A stretch of DNA of 38,656 nucleotides from a virus: the IMG/VR virus record IMGVR_UViG_3300023093_000067, positions 1 to 38,656 of that record; one strand, 5' to 3'. The translations under genes and the position numbers were made by a program. Under the pieces are notes generated by a model that saw nothing but the letters and a program-made list of their open reading frames with translations, ran no database searches and was not told the DNA's origin. Position 1 is the first letter of the stretch. Every line of letters begins with the position of its first letter. This document shows, piece after piece, positions 23,853 to 35,166 of this stretch.

Positions 23853-24592
23853 GGCTTCACCCCGTTCATCCAACTGGTGTCGTCGGCATCAAAGTCCGCA
23901 GTAGCCCGCGGCCGCAATGCAGTGACGTTCGAAGCGGCAGATCGGGTGCGGTTGTTCTTCACCCACTTCACCAACATGCTGACCCACTCAGCCTGGGTGT
24001 TCACCTGGCCCTTCGGCTCGTAGTAGCTGGTGAAGTCGGCCACGTCGGCATCGGTGACCGCATCGACTGTCAGCCCCTGATGCAACGTATAGGTTTTCAA
24101 AAGCTTCGGATCGGCAACCCAGTCGAGGGTCATCGCGGACGGCATCCGGGGGTCAACCGGCTCACGCGCAGAGAGAGGGTGTTCTATCTTCTCTACATCT
24201 TCTTTAGGTAACGCACTGCTAACGGTGGGAACGTTACTTTTACCGTTAGCAGACTTGTGATTTGCTACACGTTTAGCCGTCAGAAGCCTGTTTTTAGCGG
24301 TCTTCCCGTTGTGACGCTCGAAATGGGGCAGAGAGATCACGCCGTCAGACTCAACCATCCAGCCCACCGACTTCATGTGTTCACAGAAGCCGGTAACGCC
24401 AACCTGACGATCCAGTAACTTTTTACTAACGCTCGGAGCGTTACCGTCTTCGGTCTGCTGGTCGAACCAGCCCCACACGCGCATCAACTTACCCACCACG
24501 GCATCCGGATCGATGTCGGCAAGGTCACCGATCTGGCATACCTCTGGCTTGTCCAGGGTGGTGAGTTCGAACTTGATCCAGTCGCCAGCCAT
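23849..24592 (-). CDS. DnaT-like replication protein (O-like initiator)
   Basis: The product has 247 residues. The N-terminal part (MAGDWIKFELTTLDKPEVCQ, then IGDLADIDPDAVVGKLMRVW and a HFERHNGKTAKNR motif) is the phage replication-initiator type. The C-terminus (DWVADPKLLKTYTLHQGLTV, DVADFTSYYEPKGQV, EWVSMLVKWVKNNR) matches the DnaT ssDNA-binding domain. It should open the origin or remodel the primosome, with P-like next. A variable linker (residues about 110-145) contains a cluster of TAACG/CGTTA repeats in the DNA, so the gene may hold the origin. The start overlaps the Rha gene stop as TAATG. Confidence 0.85.
   Translation of the reverse strand: MAGDWIKFELTTLDKPEVCQIGDLADIDPDAVVGKLMRVWGWFDQQTEDGNAPSVSKKLLDRQVGVTGFCEHMKSVGWMVESDGVISLPHFERHNGKTAKNRLLTAKRVANHKSANGKSNVPTVSSALPKEDVEKIEHPLSAREPVDPRMPSAMTLDWVADPKLLKTYTLHQGLTVDAVTDADVADFTSYYEPKGQVNTQAEWVSMLVKWVKNNRTRSAASNVTALRPRATADFDADDTSWMNGVKP
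24209..24443. repeat. TAACG iteron-like cluster and hairpins, candidate origin
   Basis: Seven copies of TAACG/CGTTA occur at 24209, 24220, 24232, 24244, 24394, 24427 and 24439. Among them are a perfect 11-bp inverted repeat (24216-24226 with 24242-24252, 15-nt loop) and an 8-bp near-palindrome TAACGCTC-G-GAGCGTTA (24427-24443). All lie in less constrained parts of the replication gene, as lambda ori lies in O. Confidence 0.4.
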
Positions 24593-25335
24593 TACAAAGC
24601 CTCCTGCAGCATTTCAGCGAGGCGCGCCATGCCTTTGGGCGTGACCAGCGGCTGGGGAACTGCCTTGGTCTCACCTGTCAGCTCATTGGCTTTTAGCTCG
24701 GTAAACTTATGAGTCATGTAGCCCTGATCAATCCGATCCTGCTTGGCTGTCAGGCGCTTGCGGTTGCCGCGCTGGTAGAGCCAATCACGATTGACCATCC
24801 ATTCGATGAACTGACGGGGCTTTACCTGGAGCAGCTTGGCGGCGTCGGTAAGACACACGGCGCCATGGGCAGCAGCCAGCCGCTTAATAGCAGCGACCTT
24901 GGGAGCCTGGAGCTGGATGACACCAATGAGCCGTTCGTTCTCTTCCGCTTGGTCAGCAGCGAGCCGTAGCGCTTCGGGCAAGGTCGATGGAACTGCGAAC
25001 TGGCGTGATGCCTGGTCTTCCAATTCCTGCCAACGATCAATCACTCGGGCTCTGTGCTCGTCGCTGTATCCAGAAACAACAAGGTGGGTATCCCGTTCGA
25101 TCAGGTCGTAAACCTCAATGGGGCGCCCGCCTGTAGCTTCCCGGCGGCTTTTACGAGGAGATCGTAAAAGCCCCTTCGAGAAAAGCCGTTCTATTGTGGC
25201 GAGCACGTCGTTGTGTCGTGCCTCTACCAGTTCGGATATTTCACGCGACGACATGACCTGACGCGTCAGATTTGACGATTGATGCAAAACTGACGAATCA
25301 GCCCTGCTATTGATCGGGGTGGATATGGTGTGCAT
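24592..25335 (-). CDS. Rha-family / KilAC antirepressor-like protein
   Basis: The product has 247 residues from an ATG at 25335, with GTGAGG 7 bases upstream. The Rha domain is N-terminal (LTRQVMSSREISELVEARHN, DVLATIERLFSKG). A KilAC/ANT domain is C-terminal (KVAAIKRLAAAHGAVCLTDA, AKLLQVKPRQFIEWMVNRDW, then LYQRGNRKRLTA). The two-domain make-up is typical of phage antirepressors. It is in the place lambda uses for cII, immediately downstream of cro, so it is expressed early from PR and probably counteracts CI or another repressor. The target is not known. Confidence 0.88.
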   Translation of the reverse strand: MHTISTPINSRADSSVLHQSSNLTRQVMSSREISELVEARHNDVLATIERLFSKGLLRSPRKSRREATGGRPIEVYDLIERDTHLVVSGYSDEHRARVIDRWQELEDQASRQFAVPSTLPEALRLAADQAEENERLIGVIQLQAPKVAAIKRLAAAHGAVCLTDAAKLLQVKPRQFIEWMVNRDWLYQRGNRKRLTAKQDRIDQGYMTHKFTELKANELTGETKAVPQPLVTPKGMARLAEMLQEAL

Positions 25336-25362
25336 AATCGACCTCACAAAGTGTTGTTGAAG

Positions 25363-25476: not shown

Positions 25477-25650
25477 TCAGGCCGCCTTGGGCGAGACCTT
25501 GAACTTGCCCTTTGAAAGAACCTGAATTTGGTACTGGCGAGACGCGGGAATCGTTTCACCCCACATCGTCACGGCGCTCGGACGGATGCCGAGAGCGTCA
25601 GCCAGCTTTTTCTTGCTACCGAAGAATTCGGCCACGTCATGCGTGTTCAT
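25477..25650 (-). CDS. cro: Cro-like repressor
   Basis: The product has 57 residues: MNTHDVAEFFGSKKKLADAL then GIRPSAVTMWGETIPASRQY. Residues 13-32 give the HTH (KKLADALGIRPSAVTMW) and 33-45 the typical Cro tail (IPASRQYQIQVLSKGKF). GAGG lies 8 bases before the ATG. It is transcribed divergently from cI, from the promoter at 25678-25706 overlapping operator sites. It should bind the same operators and shut down cI, permitting lytic growth. Confidence 0.93.
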   Translation of the reverse strand: MNTHDVAEFFGSKKKLADALGIRPSAVTMWGETIPASRQYQIQVLSKGKFKVSPKAA

Positions 25651-25677
25651 TGAGCATCCTCGTTCAATCGCTGACCA

Positions 25678-25706
25678 ATTTCAGCATGCTTAATACGCTC
25701 AGTCAA
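25678..25706 (-). promoter_or_regulatory. PR-like promoter of cro/early operon
   Basis: On the minus strand TTGACT (25706-25701), a 17-bp spacer, then TGAAAT (25683-25678). The -10 region overlaps the operator at 25680-25693, so CI bound there would block it. It drives cro and the replication operon. Confidence 0.7.
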
Positions 25707-25749
25707 TCGATGGCTTAGGCAACTGCATACTTAAATTCAGTTAACTTAA
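25680..25749. promoter_or_regulatory. operator cluster between cro and cI (OR-like)
   Basis: Sites fit the 14-bp palindrome TTNAGNNNNCTNAA: TTCAGCATGCTTAA at 25680-25693 and TTCAGTTAACTTAA at 25736-25749. A weaker one, CTTAGGCAACTGCA (6 of 8 fixed positions), lies at 25714-25727, exactly 22 bp before the last. The same motif recurs in the OL-like cluster at 27677-27735. Confidence 0.8.
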
Positions 25750-25752
25750 TAT
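25747..25752 (+). promoter_or_regulatory. possible PRM -10 element of cI
   Basis: TAATAT lies 7 bases before the cI ATG and overlaps the last OR-like operator. A transcript from it would begin at or next to the ATG, giving a leaderless cI mRNA as in lambda PRM. No good -35 is seen, which suits an activated promoter. Confidence 0.4.
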
Positions 25753-25759
25753 TGAGCCC

Positions 25760-26416
25760 ATGGAAAGACACGAAAGAATCGCCAAAGCCATTGCGGCTAG
25801 CGGACTAAAGAAAGGTGAGATCGCCACTGCTTGCGGTGTGGCGAACTCAGCCGTTACTCAATGGATCAGCGGGGAGAGCAAGAGCCTCCGCCCTGAGAAT
25901 CTGTATGCGCTGGCGAAAGCTACCGGGTACAGGGCTGAGTGGCTCGCCATTGGCGAGGGGCCTGAAACGGAGGTCTCTGAGTCCTCAAACGTCAAAGCGA
26001 CTGCCCAGCCGAACGAGATGTATCGATATCCCATCATCAGCTGGGTATCCGCCGGATCATGGGAAGAAGCTGTGCAGCCCTATCCCGATGGCTTCTCAGA
26101 TCGCTACGAAATTTCCGATTACGACTCCAAAGGCCCAGCGTTCTGGCTTGAGGTCAAAGGCGACTCGATGACATCGCAAAGCGGCGTCAGCGTCCCTGAA
26201 GGAATGATGATCCTGGTAGACACCGAGGCTGATGTTCAGCCAGGCAAGCTGGTTATCGCCAAGCTGCCAGCCAGCAACGAGGCCACGTTTAAGAAGCTCG
26301 TCGAGGACGGCGGGACTCGATATCTGAAGCCGCTCAACACTGCGTATAAAATGGTTGAGTGTGATGAAGACTGTAAGATCATAGGAGTGGCTGTGAGGAT
26401 GACTGGCCGACTCTGA
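25760..26416 (+). CDS. cI: CI-like repressor (HTH + S24 peptidase)
   Basis: The product has 218 residues. The N-terminal HTH covers about 5-60 (GEIATACGVANSAVTQWISG). A linker leads to the LexA/CI C-terminal domain: self-cleavage site Ala98-Gly99 (WVSAGSW), nucleophile Ser136 (KGDSMTS) and a Lys near 178 (ATFKKLV). It would keep the prophage silent by binding TTNAGNNNNCTNAA operators at both clusters, and cleave itself when RecA is activated. No ribosome site precedes the ATG; leaderless translation is likely. It is divergent from cro. Confidence 0.95.
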   Translation: MERHERIAKAIAASGLKKGEIATACGVANSAVTQWISGESKSLRPENLYALAKATGYRAEWLAIGEGPETEVSESSNVKATAQPNEMYRYPIISWVSAGSWEEAVQPYPDGFSDRYEISDYDSKGPAFWLEVKGDSMTSQSGVSVPEGMMILVDTEADVQPGKLVIAKLPASNEATFKKLVEDGGTRYLKPLNTAYKMVECDEDCKIIGVAVRMTGRL

Positions 26417-26504: not shown

Positions 26505-27257
26505 ATGAGCGTTAAGCATCCGCCACATCCCAGATCGACTCCCAAGGCGAAGGCCGGGGTTACGCGGGATAAAGTGACTGGCAGGTTGGTGGATACCCAT
26601 GAAAAAATCTTCATTCCAGTATCAAAAAATCTGCGATCTGGGGTGTGGATCGCGGCTACAGGCGATGCAGAGACCGAGCCGCCTCTTTCGGTAGCGGAGG
26701 CTCAGCGAAGGTTCGAAGAATCGATAGCGAAGCATCGGGAAGCCCAGGTCAAATGGATCGAGGCGTTTGGCCCTCCTGAGGGGTGGGTAAAGATCGAAGA
26801 CTTGCCGGTGGACACTCCAACAGAGCAAAGCCATACTCCAGATATGACCGACATTTCACGTGAAGAATTTAACGCCCGCATGGAGACCATCGAAGTAAAG
26901 ATGGACGCCAGGGTTAATGATGTCTCCAGCAAAATAGAAGGTTTTCTGTCTGCGCAGGTTGAGCGTGACAAAGCCCAGATTGAGCGCGATAAACGGTATG
27001 AACTGTTGGCGGAACGAGTAATAAAAGCCGCAGAGGGTGCCGAAAACGCCGCAAAAATGGCAGCTACTGTGAAGTCCAACTACTGGGCTGCAGTCGGCGT
27101 GCAGCTTTTTGCGGTTGCAGCGATTTTAGTAGGCGCCTACTTCGCCACGCAGGCTAATACGCTAAGCGCGATCGCCACTACTTTGTCAGCCTATCAGGCT
27201 GGCAAATTGGATTCTCCGAGACAACCAGCGCCGCCGGACCCAGCCGAGCGCAAATGA
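26505..27257 (+). CDS. coiled-coil membrane protein downstream of cI
   Basis: The product has 250 residues. The N-terminus is basic and Pro-rich (HPPHPRSTPKAKAG), then helical and charged. A coiled coil runs about 115-185 (EEFNARMETIEVKMDARVND, then AQVERDKAQIERDKRYELLA). One C-terminal membrane span (YWAAVGVQLFAVAAILVGAY, about 198-217) and a short tail follow. AAGGAAG lies ahead of the ATG. It follows cI in the same direction and ends at a terminator, so it is likely co-transcribed with the repressor in the lysogen. Such a position in lambda is used by the rex exclusion genes. Superinfection exclusion is an inference; no family is recognised. Confidence 0.8.
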   Translation: MSVKHPPHPRSTPKAKAGVTRDKVTGRLVDTHEKIFIPVSKNLRSGVWIAATGDAETEPPLSVAEAQRRFEESIAKHREAQVKWIEAFGPPEGWVKIEDLPVDTPTEQSHTPDMTDISREEFNARMETIEVKMDARVNDVSSKIEGFLSAQVERDKAQIERDKRYELLAERVIKAAEGAENAAKMAATVKSNYWAAVGVQLFAVAAILVGAYFATQANTLSAIATTLSAYQAGKLDSPRQPAPPDPAERK

Positions 27258-27286
27258 AAAAAAGCCCGCCAGTCGCGGGCTTTTTT
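27256..27286. terminator. bidirectional terminator after cI-linked operon
   Basis: Arms AAGCCCGC and GCGGGCTT (8 bp, 5-nt loop) have six T residues downstream on the plus strand and seven on the minus strand. It isolates the cI unit from the DUF1654 gene. Confidence 0.88.
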
Positions 27287-27298
27287 GTGCCTGCAACG

Positions 27299-27324
27299 CA
27301 AAAGAGTACAGATGTACTCTTTTG
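27299..27324. promoter_or_regulatory. 26-bp palindrome with GTAC-N4-GTAC (LexA2-type box)
   Basis: Perfect 12-bp arms CAAAAGAGTACA and TGTACTCTTTTG, separated by GA, contain GTAC-AGAT-GTAC at 27306-27317. GTAC-N4-GTAC is the motif reported for the second LexA of Pseudomonas putida. It lies 63 bp before the DUF1654 start. Confidence 0.7.
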
Positions 27325-27349
27325 GATTGCCTGCCACCTCCAGATGGAA

Positions 27350-27369
27350 TACTGTATATCCATACAGCA
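27350..27369. promoter_or_regulatory. LexA (SOS) box of E. coli type
   Basis: TACTGTATATCCATACAGCA has the CTGT-N8-ACAG core (27352-27367) and differs from the E. coli consensus at few positions. It lies 18 bp before the DUF1654 ATG, so LexA would block its transcription until DNA damage. Confidence 0.88.
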
Positions 27370-27386
27370 ATGGTAAGGAGGACCGG

Positions 27387-27638
27387 ATGTCTATCAGCAG
27401 TAAAGCTACCCACCCCACCCCATCACCCTACGAGATTGTCGGGCGGCGCATTCAGCGCGTGGTCGCCGATCCAAAGGTCCAGAAAATTCAAGTGGTCACT
27501 GTCACCCGCCGTGATGACGAGCCGGTCGAGGCCTGGGAGCGAGTGCTCGCAGAGCTTGAGGCAACTGACGGTGTTGTCGTTGACCGAGATGAAGACGGCA
27601 CAGCACGCATTGGCTGGAAGCAATACATCGACCGTTGA
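27387..27638 (+). CDS. DUF1654 protein, SOS-controlled (PP_3901-like candidate)
   Basis: The product has 83 residues. The DUF1654 pattern is seen: SPYEIVGRRIQRVVADPKVQ, then a VVTVTRRDDEPVEAWERVLA stretch and DGVVVDRDEDGTARIGW. AAGGAGG lies just before the ATG at 27387. It lies between the OR- and OL-like clusters, with its own terminators on both sides and two LexA-type boxes ahead. In P. putida KT2440 a prophage gene (PP_3901) was reported to be controlled by both LexA proteins and to be needed for damage induction of prophage genes. This gene is a good candidate for the same role. I infer the equivalence from context and have not compared the proteins. Confidence 0.85.
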   Translation: MSISSKATHPTPSPYEIVGRRIQRVVADPKVQKIQVVTVTRRDDEPVEAWERVLAELEATDGVVVDRDEDGTARIGWKQYIDR

Positions 27639-27641
27639 ATG

Positions 27642-27664
27642 AAGCCCGCTCTAGGCGGGCTTTT
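27642..27664 (+). terminator. terminator after DUF1654 gene
   Basis: Arms AGCCCGC and GCGGGCT (7 bp, 5-nt loop) are followed by TTTT. It lies just after the DUF1654 stop and before the OL-like operators. Confidence 0.8.
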
Positions 27665-27676
27665 CTACGCCAGAAA

Positions 27677-27735
27677 TTCAGCAAACTTAATTAATTCATT
27701 CAGCATGCTTGACTCATGCATTTCAGTTTGCTTAA
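27677..27735. promoter_or_regulatory. operator cluster of second early operon (OL-like)
   Basis: Three sites fit TTNAGNNNNCTNAA: TTCAGCAAACTTAA (27677-27690), TTCAGCATGCTTGA (27699-27712, one change) and TTCAGTTTGCTTAA (27722-27735). Starts are 22 and 23 bp apart, i.e. about two helical turns, which suits cooperative CI dimers. The last two overlap the PL-like promoter. Confidence 0.85.
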
Positions 27736-27737
27736 AT
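27709..27737 (+). promoter_or_regulatory. PL-like promoter
   Basis: TTGACT (27709-27714), a 17-bp spacer, then TTAAAT (27732-27737). The two hexamers overlap operators 2 and 3 of the OL-like cluster. It has the same TTGACT-17 arrangement as the PR-like promoter. Confidence 0.75.
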
Positions 27738-29524: not shown

Positions 29525-29884
29525 ATGAATCAGACGATCAGCCAGAACCGCGCGATCCTCGAAGGCCTGCGTCAGCGTTGCACGCTCTCAACTGCTGAGT
29601 TTTACGACAAAGTTGACCGCATCAACCCGGCCCCACCGGCCCCGTTTATTGTGGTGCCCTGTGGTAACGGCGAATTCAGCATCGTGGACCGCGCCAGCGA
29701 CCGCACTAAAGCAATGTGCACCGGCATCGACAAGGCCGTGCGATTCGCCAAGCGTTGCGAGGAAGCACCCGTAGTTGAACAGCAAGCCAAGGCCCCGCCG
29801 CACTTCGGCACCTTGATGCTTTACTGGACTGCCGCCCTGTCCGTGATCATCGGCCTGTTCGCCTTCTTCGGTGCGCATCCATGA
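29525..29884 (+). CDS. hypothetical protein with C-terminal membrane anchor
   Basis: The product has 119 residues from an ATG at 29525 with GGAG 6 bases upstream. A longer frame to 29477 would start inside the hairpin. The N-terminal half is soluble (MNQTISQNRAILEGLRQRCT, then FIVVPCGNGEFSIVDRASDR). The last 25 residues are a span (LYWTAALSVIIGLFAFFG), giving a tail-anchored layout. The next gene starts in its stop (ATGA). Function is unknown. Confidence 0.75.
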   Translation: MNQTISQNRAILEGLRQRCTLSTAEFYDKVDRINPAPPAPFIVVPCGNGEFSIVDRASDRTKAMCTGIDKAVRFAKRCEEAPVVEQQAKAPPHFGTLMLYWTAALSVIIGLFAFFGAHP

Positions 29885-30570
29885 TCAGCACCGAGCTGAG
29901 CATGGTTCAGCACAACCGCAGCGCCTCTGAACGACTGGAGGCTGCCACACGCGAATTCTTGAACCGGGGCGGCAAGGTCGACCAGATCGGAACCACCTAC
30001 TACCGGCCACTGACCTACAACAACGAGGTTATCCCGCCCAGCGCCAAGCTGAGCCAGGCCGCCAATCTGAACCGTGCGGCAAAGGCCCTGCAATTTGAGC
30101 GCTCGATTGCCGAAAAGCTGGTCGCCTACATCGATATCGGCGTTGCCCAGGCGGCGAAAGACTTGGGGCTCAGCACCCGCCGACTGAACTTCATCGCGTC
30201 CAGCTACGGCGTGGTGTTCAACACGGTCAGCCATGAATCAGCGATCAAGCGTAAACGAGCGGCTGAAGCTGAGTTAGCGCCCCAGATCATCAAGATGTTC
30301 GCCGATGGGTGCAGCCAGCAGGACGCGATTAGAAAATTCGGCCTGACGAAGGACCGGCTCAGGCGAATGGCTCGGGATCACGGCATCAAGCTGCCCGGCC
30401 GTGTCGATGAGGCAGCCGACCGCAAGCTGATCGAAAGCATCACGGCTATCCGAGATCTTGGCTTGCCGCGTCGAACGTGCGCCCAGCGCCTCGGCATTGC
30501 CGGCAAGAAGCTCGACCGCATCGTCGAGATGTACGGCGTCAGCTACCCGCTACAGCGCATCCACAGATGA
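29881..30570 (+). CDS. triple helix-turn-helix protein
   Basis: The product has 229 residues. Three HTH-like units share the pattern A-x-x-x-GL-x-x-x-RL-x-x-IA-x-x-YGV: residues 88-113 (GVAQAAKDLGLSTRRLNFIA), 145-170 (QQDAIRKFGLTKDRLRRMAR) and 196-221 (PRRTCAQRLGIAGKKLDRIV). The charged linkers are 30-50 residues long. It is translation-coupled to the membrane-anchored gene. Probably a DNA-binding regulator reading a long site; the family is not recognised by me. Confidence 0.8.
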   Translation: MISTELSMVQHNRSASERLEAATREFLNRGGKVDQIGTTYYRPLTYNNEVIPPSAKLSQAANLNRAAKALQFERSIAEKLVAYIDIGVAQAAKDLGLSTRRLNFIASSYGVVFNTVSHESAIKRKRAAEAELAPQIIKMFADGCSQQDAIRKFGLTKDRLRRMARDHGIKLPGRVDEAADRKLIESITAIRDLGLPRRTCAQRLGIAGKKLDRIVEMYGVSYPLQRIHR

Positions 30571-31916: not shown

Positions 31917-32741
31917 TCATTGCCTCTTCGGAAGAATCCTCGTCTGGAAACCTCCAAAGTAGGTAAAGTGCAAGTCTCTACATAAACCCTCAAGATCTCC
32001 AAACATCGTCTTAGCGCCAACCCCTGCCTGGATTAGGTCCGTAACAACTGTAGCTATAAACTCTCTCTTAATAACTATTTTATGGGCGACTTCTTTCGGG
32101 AATAAGTGCTGAACGGTACACCCGACCGAGAAAACACCACTTTGAGTCCGGAGCCTGCTATTCAGATAGTTAGGCGTGTAGAAGCAATATCCAGATTGTT
32201 GTGCTTTATCCACAACATCAAACACATCTTCTGGCAAAGATTCACTATCAACCCAGATCGCTGGATCATCGCCCGTGACCACAAACACCACAGCATCTGC
32301 TACAGCTGATCCGAACTCGTTGCCCAGTGCCGGTATACATTCGGCGCCAGACCTGACTAAATCCGAACAATCGAACATATTCTTAAACTCATACTTGACG
32401 CCGTCTATCGCAAAAAAAAGCGCGGCCAATGGTGATAAAGACCAATCAAGAAGTCTAGTTGGCATGCCGTAGTGCTGTGCAAGAGCCAGCACATCCCATT
32501 TGTTCTGACTAGACAGGTTGTGATATCCGTGCCGCTCAGCATTAAAGATATCAAATGCTGTCTTTGCTCGTGAAATCCTACTGTTATCCTCAAAGTCTGG
32601 GGCTCTAGCAAGAGAGCTTTTCAGATCCCAATCGACGTTAGCCTGACCTCTATACACTGCCCTCTTATGACCGTTAACAACCTTCTTGATGGCCGCCATA
32701 AATTGCGCCAGATTACAAACATACTCAGTCATAGCTTCCAT
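31917..32741 (-). CDS. FRG-domain protein, accessory (moron) gene
   Basis: The product has 274 residues from an ATG at 32741, with AAGGGA about 8 bases upstream. The FRG domain is clear: AVYRGQANVDWDLKSSLARA (about residues 28-47) and LALAQHYGMPTRLLDWSLSP (about 86-105), followed by FFAIDG. It is on the strand opposite to the early operon and visibly richer in A+T than its neighbours, with an own terminator-like hairpin, so it was probably acquired separately. FRG proteins are common in mobile elements and defence-linked loci. The biochemical activity is not settled. Anti-phage or toxin function is an inference. Confidence 0.88.
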   Translation of the reverse strand: MEAMTEYVCNLAQFMAAIKKVVNGHKRAVYRGQANVDWDLKSSLARAPDFEDNSRISRAKTAFDIFNAERHGYHNLSSQNKWDVLALAQHYGMPTRLLDWSLSPLAALFFAIDGVKYEFKNMFDCSDLVRSGAECIPALGNEFGSAVADAVVFVVTGDDPAIWVDSESLPEDVFDVVDKAQQSGYCFYTPNYLNSRLRTQSGVFSVGCTVQHLFPKEVAHKIVIKREFIATVVTDLIQAGVGAKTMFGDLEGLCRDLHFTYFGGFQTRILPKRQ

Positions 32742-33363: not shown

Positions 33364-35166
33364 ATGTCCGCTCACCAAAAGAAACATCCACTCGTCCTTG
33401 CCCCTACATTCGGCCTTCCTTTCGAAAAGGAACTGGTCGTCGACCTCTTCGCGGGTGGTGGTGGCGCGAGCACCGGCATTGCCCGGGCGTACCGCGAGCC
33501 GGACGTTGCCGTAAACCATAACCAGATTGCGCTGGCTGTTCACCGCGCGAACCATCCAAACACTCAGCACTATGTGGCTGACGTGTTCGAGGTCGATCCG
33601 GTACTTGCAACTGGCGGGCAGCCGGTGGGAATTCTCTGGGCATCACCTGATTGCCGCCATCACAGCAAGGCCAAGGGCGGCGCGCCGCGTGATCGCAAGG
33701 TGCGCGGGTTGGCATGGGTGGTTATCCGGTGGGCATTCGCCACCCGACCGCGCCTTCTCTTCCTCGAAAATGTTGAAGAGTTCTGCGACTGGGGGCCGAT
33801 TGATGATGAAGGCCAGCCAATCAAGTCGGAAAAAGGCCGCACGTTCCGCTCTTTTATTGCGGCCCTGAGCACCGGCCTCCCCGCCGATCATCCCGACATG
33901 GGTGAGATTTTGGAATCGATCGGTGAATTTGTTCCAGTCGCCAGCTTGGTACGCGGGCTTGGCTACAACGTCGAATGGCAGGAGCGCATCGCAGCCAACG
34001 CAGGAGCACCGACGATTCGCAAGCGCCTGTACCTGGTGGCGCGGAGCGATGGAAAGCCAATCGTGTGGCCAGAACCTGTACGCCATAAGAAGCCGGTTGG
34101 TAACCAGAAGGGATGGCGCAGCGCTGCGGAATGCATCGACTGGAGCCATGAGGGGCGAACCATTTTCCGTAAAAACCCCATGGCCCGAAACACTATGCGG
34201 CGCGTGGCAAAAGGTTGCTGGCGGCACGTTCTGACTAGCGCGAAGCCATTCATCGTGCCAATGCGCGGAACATCGCCCTCCCACACAAGCTCCCACGGCG
34301 TTGACGAGGCTCTTTCCACAATAAGCGCTGGCGGCAATCATCACGCGCTCGTTGCGCCGAAAATGGCGACCTTCCTAACCGAATGCGCCAATGGCTCGGC
34401 GCAACGAAACTTCAATGTGCAAGAGCCCCTACGAACACAAGTAGCTCAGGTTAAAGGGGGTCATTTTGCGGTGGTCGCAGCCTCGATGGTGACGCTGCGC
34501 AAAGGGTCTGTCGGTGCCGATATCCAAAATCCCCTGTCGGTCGTCGCCACTAGCACCGGGCACCACGCCGTAGCCGCTGCATTCTTCGAGCAGGCCAACG
34601 GCGGCTTTTATACCGGCGATGGGCGCTCAGCTGGCGACCCCCTTTCGACTATTTGCCAGTCCGGCTCAAATCAGCGGCTGGTAAAGGCGTACCTGGTCAA
34701 ATATTACGGCAACGAAAAAGACGGCGTCCCTCTTACCGAGCCGATGCACACGCTGCCAACCAAGGACCGTATTGCGCTGATCGAGACGGTTCAGGTCCCG
34801 GATACGCTGACGCCTGAGCAGATGGAAGGTGCCCGCCGCTGCGCCGCATTCATGCATGAGTTCCTACCTGAGCACTTTAAAGACCCGGCCGAAATGGTTT
34901 TGGTCGGCGGTTACGTGCTGGTGGATATCACTCTCCGCATGCTCCAGCCGCCAGAGCTGAAGAAGGCCCAGGGCTTCCCGGACAACTACATCATTGATCG
35001 CGGCCTTTTTGTTGATCCGGAAACAGGTGCCGAGGAATGGCGCAGCGTCAACAAAACCGAGGGTGTCAGGCTCATTGGGAACAGTGTTTGCCCGGACGAA
35101 GCCGAGGGGTTGGTATCGGCCAATGCGGCTGACCTAATCGAGATGTACAGGAGATTGGCAGCATGA
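33364..35166 (+). CDS. DNA (cytosine-5) methyltransferase
   Basis: The product has 600 residues. Motif I is LVVDLFAGGGGASTG (24-38). Motif IV is SPDC with catalytic Cys97, where PC is usual. Motif VI is LENVEEF (about 134), motif VIII is RKRLYLVA (about 219), and motifs IX-X include KAQGFPDNYI (about 534) and RLIGNSVCP (about 569). Between about 295 and 476 there are five degenerate repeats with cores EALSTI, EPLRTQ, NPLSVV, DPLSTI and EPMHTL, likely the target-recognition region. GAGG lies 8 bases ahead of the ATG. It probably protects phage DNA from restriction; no partner nuclease is seen. Confidence 0.93.
   Translation: MSAHQKKHPLVLAPTFGLPFEKELVVDLFAGGGGASTGIARAYREPDVAVNHNQIALAVHRANHPNTQHYVADVFEVDPVLATGGQPVGILWASPDCRHHSKAKGGAPRDRKVRGLAWVVIRWAFATRPRLLFLENVEEFCDWGPIDDEGQPIKSEKGRTFRSFIAALSTGLPADHPDMGEILESIGEFVPVASLVRGLGYNVEWQERIAANAGAPTIRKRLYLVARSDGKPIVWPEPVRHKKPVGNQKGWRSAAECIDWSHEGRTIFRKNPMARNTMRRVAKGCWRHVLTSAKPFIVPMRGTSPSHTSSHGVDEALSTISAGGNHHALVAPKMATFLTECANGSAQRNFNVQEPLRTQVAQVKGGHFAVVAASMVTLRKGSVGADIQNPLSVVATSTGHHAVAAAFFEQANGGFYTGDGRSAGDPLSTICQSGSNQRLVKAYLVKYYGNEKDGVPLTEPMHTLPTKDRIALIETVQVPDTLTPEQMEGARRCAAFMHEFLPEHFKDPAEMVLVGGYVLVDITLRMLQPPELKKAQGFPDNYIIDRGLFVDPETGAEEWRSVNKTEGVRLIGNSVCPDEAEGLVSANAADLIEMYRRLAA

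Follow-up and report, generated by a model that had tools for sequence, protein, structure and literature searches.

The 83-residue DUF1654 gene in the immunity region of the phage studied here is probably a prophage gene under SOS control and of the same type as PP_3901; it would be held off by both LexA1 and LexA2 and, by analogy, its product may aid induction. PP_3901 belongs to both LexA regulons of Pseudomonas putida, and the damage induction of prophage genes in strain KT2440 requires it (Abella 2007, as reported in PMC4595014). The gene analysed here is a further member of this already known kind. Its predicted dual LexA1/LexA2 control, which the first-pass annotation had proposed on the model of PP_3901, is well supported by the boxes themselves, by the geometry of the promoter and by a layout conserved in other phages.

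The window, i.e. the whole stretch of DNA that was analysed, is the 38,656-base IMG/VR virus record IMGVR_UViG_3300023093_000067, an isolated virus contig without host genome. It is a Pseudomonas temperate-phage record, whose nearest annotated relatives are Pseudomonas phages (~76-81% over short stretches). From left to right, the region comprises a KilAC/pRha antirepressor gene (-), cro (-), OR-type operators, cI and a 250-aa gene, followed by a terminator, the two-box promoter, the DUF1654 gene (83 aa), another terminator and three OL-type operators (Table 1). The DUF1654 gene is situated in a temperate-phage immunity region, downstream of cI and with cI, cro and OR-/OL-type repeats around it.

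Table 1. Coordinates of the DUF1654 locus and of the surrounding immunity region in the window.
Feature	Position	Strand	Evidence and remarks
cro, P22 Cro family	25477-25650	-	PF14549 E=3.3e-19
Two OR-type CI/Cro operators	25677-25750 (25677-25694, 25733-25750)		Consensus TTCAGc..GCTTAA
cI repressor, S24 family, Ala-Gly cleavage motif WVSAGSW	25760-26416	+	PF00717 E=7e-27; motif from translation
Intrinsic-terminator-like hairpin closing the upstream transcript	27258-27286	+	12-bp perfect arms AAAAAAGCCCGC/GCGGGCTTTTTT; RNA fold -18.4 kcal/mol, z -3.6
Predicted LexA2 operator	27299-27324 (core GAGTACAGATGTACTC 27304-27319; GTAC-N4-GTAC 27306-27317)		Centre ~-51 from predicted start
-35 hexamer TTGCCT	27327-27332	+	From sequence; TTGCC- is the commonest -35 (61 distinct homologous promoters)
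-10 hexamer TACTGT	27350-27355	+	17-bp spacer; overlaps LexA1 box; all 61 homologous two-box promoters have TACTGT
LexA1 (E. coli-type) SOS box CTGTATATCCATACAG	27352-27367		CTGT-N8-ACAG occurs nowhere else in the window (chance expectation 0.45)
Ribosome-binding site AAGGAGG	27375-27381	+	Read from sequence
DUF1654 gene, 83 aa, PP_3901 family	27387-27638	+	PF07867 E=1.7e-19; phrog_2707 E=5.5e-22
Terminator-like hairpin 3' of DUF1654	27642-27664	+	GC-rich stem-loop with T run, RNA fold
Three OL-type CI/Cro operators directly past DUF1654	27674-27736 (27674-27691, ~27696-27715, 27719-27736)		

The candidate LexA2 site lies directly upstream of the -35 hexamer. It had been described as a perfect 26-bp palindrome and does consist of two perfect 11-bp arms, but the central AGAT is not self-complementary, so that the palindrome is not strictly perfect; imperfectly, the arms extend to 18 nt each (27293-27330, 89%). 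Within its core (GAGTAC-AGAT-GTACTC), the sequence GTAC-AGAT-GTAC is present as a single copy in the 38.7-kb window, where 0.05 would be expected. The core is also no more than one mismatch away from GAGTACAAATGTACTC, for which 0.13 matches would be expected with up to three mismatches allowed. This latter sequence is found upstream of the gene preceding imuA, 3 bp from its start codon, in 13/13 genomes, and then in 10/10 more (23/23), the first 13 being the ImuA-positive genomes among 14 tested hosts of related prophages, one of which was ImuA-negative. In the one genome checked, the gene following it encodes a LexA DNA-binding domain and an S24 domain. The proposed equation of GTAC-N4-GTAC with the LexA2 motif is thus supported: the window core agrees with the operator of all 23 lexA2-imuA promoters at 15/16 bases, the difference being one spacer base, and the site does not resemble the CI operators. 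The promoter of the lexA2-imuA-imuB-dnaE2 (imuC) operon of Pseudomonas shares this operator, and often the same AAAAGA flank, but has it just ahead of the start codon of lexA2, and none of the 13 stretches scanned for a LexA1 box next to it had one.

The LexA1 box of the window fits the consensus and overlies the promoter, overlapping TACTGT and running from the -10 hexamer past the predicted transcription start (~27362). Counted back from the ATG, the two boxes together occupy the stretch between 88 and 20 bp, i.e. within the 90 bp originally given, and the strong ribosome site, the 83-residue gene and the terminators on both sides, each a GC-rich stem-loop with a T run, were recovered as well. 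A generic promoter scan of the window did not list the TTGCCT/TACTGT promoter, because it requires an A and a T as the second and sixth bases of the -10, plus 9/12 matches; the predicted assignment draws on conservation across homologues. An AlphaFold2 model of the DUF1654 protein (pLDDT 82) has a helix-helix-strand-helix-strand-strand arrangement. Foldseek searches of this model against PDB and BFVD returned nothing at E<0.001, and no function was therefore assigned from the fold.

In order to compare the window gene with PP_3901, the latter was located with published primers (PMC4595014) in a viral contig, where the other three primers also match. PP_3901 of KT2440 is itself a DUF1654 gene (PF07867 E=1.7e-32), and its promoter carries GAGTACAAATGTGCTC 33 bp before CTGTCTATGCATACAG. 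The two genes have in common their prophage location, the layout of their promoters, with a LexA2-type box followed by TTGCC-17-TACTGT under a LexA1 box, and nearly the same spacing of the boxes (32 bp in the window against 33 bp). They differ in the LexA2 half-sites, which are perfect in the window whereas one is imperfect (GTGC) in PP_3901. The proteins are 25% identical, and the claimed relation is thereby sustained at the level of family and promoter layout, the window protein being a distant member; a role in induction was tested for PP_3901 only. A regulatory parallel is provided by LexA-controlled phage antirepressor genes such as tum of coliphage 186. Both are SOS-controlled early prophage genes proposed to aid induction, but tum answers to one LexA protein and the window gene would answer to two, and the likeness is one of regulation.

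The two-box promoter is widespread. A scan of IMG/VR DNA for GAGTAC-N4-GTRCTC-N24..45-CTGT-N8-ACAG, made without protein information, recovered 67 contigs. Of 68 instances, the window included, 66 have DUF1654 directly downstream, and in the remaining two the contig stops too early to tell. The gap between the boxes is 33 bp in 34/66 instances and 32-35 bp in 61/66. In all 61 distinct promoters the 16-mer has the same base at positions 1-7, 11, 12 and 14-16; for GAGTAC and the R-containing right arm this invariance is imposed by the search pattern, for position 7 it is not. A looser pattern run on 399 Pseudomonas genomes gave 28 matches, ten of which were well formed, nine of these before an intact DUF1654 ORF and the tenth (L131) with no ORF of at least 60 aa found. 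The remaining matches are chance-like, and a reversed control also yields matches. All ten host genomes with a well-formed two-box promoter possess lexA2-imuA. The same pair of boxes, at the same spacing ahead of DUF1654, is thus found in dozens of other phages, and a chance occurrence is rejected by the conserved spacing and the association with DUF1654.

The second box turned out to be less constant than the first. A protein search by similarity to three proteins provided 62 distinct DUF1654 upstream regions, so that the shares of second-site types in this sample do not stand for those among DUF1654 genes at large. A LexA1 box with at most one mismatch is present in 60/62, ~35 bp before the start codon, and appears to be common to almost all DUF1654 genes, including the chromosomal copy of most Pseudomonas. 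The second site was ATGCAT-N2-ATGCAT in 34 regions, ATATGT-N11-ACATAT-like in six and GAGTAC in one, and none was recognised in 21. The class b prophage genes (L016, L027 and others) have the same gene, promoter and LexA1 box as the window, but their second site, ATGCAT-N2-ATGCAT, matches sites around PrtR-like tailocin repressors, not LexA2. The combination of ATGCAT site and LexA1 box was found on 57 IMG/VR contigs, before DUF1654 in 57/57 and with a gap of 44 in 52. Among loci with enough sequence, 27/42 of the LexA2 group and 31/31 of the ATGCAT group have a homologue of the window's CI family encoded upstream, on the same strand. The ATGCAT site occurs as one copy per ~10-kb phage locus, and is therefore not a usual multi-copy CI operator. 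In 19/19 genomes, a PrtR-like S24 repressor adjoining a phage-type holin gene has the same ATGCA-type sequences on its flanks; this locus was taken to be the chromosomal tailocin cluster. From these matches we infer that the promoters of the ATGCAT group would be read by LexA1 and PrtR.

The distance between box centres is 49 bp in the LexA2 group vs 59 bp in the ATGCAT group, about one helical turn apart, although a comparison of only two groups does not allow a conclusion. On a tree of 89 columns, weakly resolved and used only for second-site change within clades, the type of second site changes nine times against a minimum of three, and L023, of the ATATGT type, falls inside the clade of the window, where its second site was probably swapped. 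These observations make it somewhat more probable than an even chance that DUF1654 phage genes constitute a modular two-input damage gate, in which a constant LexA1 box is combined with an exchangeable upstream site for LexA2, for a PrtR-like repressor of the host tailocin or for another regulator. The LexA1 box would accordingly be general for the family and the second box one of several alternatives, which goes beyond what the first-pass annotation had envisaged; within limited literature searching, the exchangeable second operator and the tailocin link appear undescribed.

Two further observations concern these second sites. The palindrome ATATGT-N11-ACATAT is found upstream of DUF1654 in L015, L023, L042, L053, L055 and L075, and a search for its regulator gave no match. 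In the genome of Pseudomonas sp. BCA17 (L112, 1500-3018), the LexA1 and ATGCAT pair, here ATGCATAAATGCAT and CTGTATGGGTATACAG, the latter being the LexA1 box, precedes an ORF whose product has both a colicin M-like and a colicin pore-forming domain, which suggests that a bacteriocin gene may be under the same LexA1 and PrtR-type control.

Other explanations of the palindrome were considered. Its place in the immunity region, with OR-type operators on one side and OL-type operators on the other, would fit an operator for the CI or Cro of the phage itself. However, the phage operators read TTCAGC..GCTTAA and are present in five copies at OR and OL, whereas the GTAC site has a single copy in 38.7 kb and matches them at 9/20 at best; this reading was rejected and is scarcely credible. 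The palindrome also folds well as RNA (-14.4 kcal/mol, z -6.0) and could act as a hairpin, either terminator or attenuator, but it is placed upstream of the -35 hexamer, a good terminator already stands ahead of it, and among the 61 distinct promoters only the 16-bp core is strongly conserved, the flanking pairs that lengthen the stem being complementary in about half or fewer. With the core conserved as DNA and the stem flanks not, an RNA hairpin was likewise rejected as very improbable. Alternatively, LexA1 alone might control the window gene, the GTAC site being a functionless leftover in a present host that has no LexA2. That the record comes without a host genome, that a third of the sampled upstream regions (21/62) have no recognised second site, and that one of the 14 tested hosts is ImuA-negative would all be compatible with this. 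Nevertheless, a relic would decay, and the extended palindrome is near-perfect, agrees with the lexA2 operator at 15/16 bases and is placed as in dozens of relatives; we consider control by LexA1 alone unlikely.

On the preferred reading of repression by both LexA proteins, a sigma-70 promoter would drive a one-gene DUF1654 transcript, which terminators on both sides insulate within the immunity region of the phage. Host LexA1 would, in the lysogen, occupy the -10/start region and host LexA2 the stretch just upstream of -35, both keeping the promoter off. Upon DNA damage, RecA would prompt the self-cleavage of both LexA proteins, and the DUF1654 protein would be made in parallel with the RecA-driven cleavage of phage CI and would then help to switch on prophage genes. 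Binding of LexA1 and LexA2 is predicted here from the two boxes, their joint, AND-like repression would follow the same scheme, and the inducing function of the window protein is proposed by analogy with PP_3901. As a counterpoint to dual repression, it is not obvious how a repressor at -51 would occlude the promoter. The additional cleavage of CI invoked earlier is plausible, the phage CI having an S24 domain and the WVSAGSW Ala-Gly site. Because CI also looks cleavable, DUF1654 is probably an additional input and not the sole trigger.

The regulation may also be right and the role of the protein different: it could be an accessory protein of the host SOS response, in a copy carried by the phage, acting in repair, cell division or host takeover, and not an inducer. 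At least one DUF1654 is present in 349/399 Pseudomonas genomes. A CTGT-N8-ACAG-type box was found close upstream in at least 36 of 40 mostly chromosomal copies, a sample biased towards the best family scores, and neither a GAGTAC nor an ATGCAT site was found upstream of these 40. DUF1654 is thus a widespread Pseudomonas gene family that is probably LexA1-regulated, and since a chromosomal copy with its own LexA1 box is widespread, the family may serve the cellular damage response, not prophage induction as such. In the window phage, moreover, an antirepressor gene and a CI that looks cleavable are present already. Against this stands the reported need for PP_3901 in the damage induction of KT2440 prophage genes (Abella 2007, in PMC4595014), and we regard the accessory role as a real possibility, but a doubtful one. 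In one genome (L206, 3205-4159), a chromosomal DUF1654 gene is followed immediately, on the same strand, by a gene for endonuclease I.

PP_3901 has been described as the sole gene common to both P. putida LexA regulons. Our results indicate that it is now one apparent case of a widespread phage family read by two damage-sensing repressors, the second of which changes from phage to phage. If this is true, prophage induction would be tied to the commitment of the host to mutagenesis or to bacteriocin-driven lysis. This opens to testing the idea that temperate phages tune their induction to the damage programme of the host, be it translesion mutagenesis or tailocin production, and that they would do so via host-encoded repressors, besides phage CI.

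Several other genes of the window were noted. Beyond cro, an antirepressor-like protein with pRha and KilAC (ANT) domains (24592-25347, minus strand) is a second possible route to CI inactivation. The 250-aa protein between cI and DUF1654 (26505-27257, plus strand) belongs to no known family and has a C-terminal hydrophobic segment; it is possibly a lysogenic membrane or exclusion protein, and a relative was found at the equivalent position in L219. A protein encoded at 29881-30570 (plus strand) has a weak, below-cut-off match to a SutA RNA-polymerase-binding segment (E=9.4e-6). An FRG-domain protein at 31917-32741 (minus strand), encoded on the strand opposite to its neighbours, has the look of a cargo gene, and a gene for a C-5 cytosine DNA methyltransferase of 600 aa is located at 33364-35166 (plus strand).
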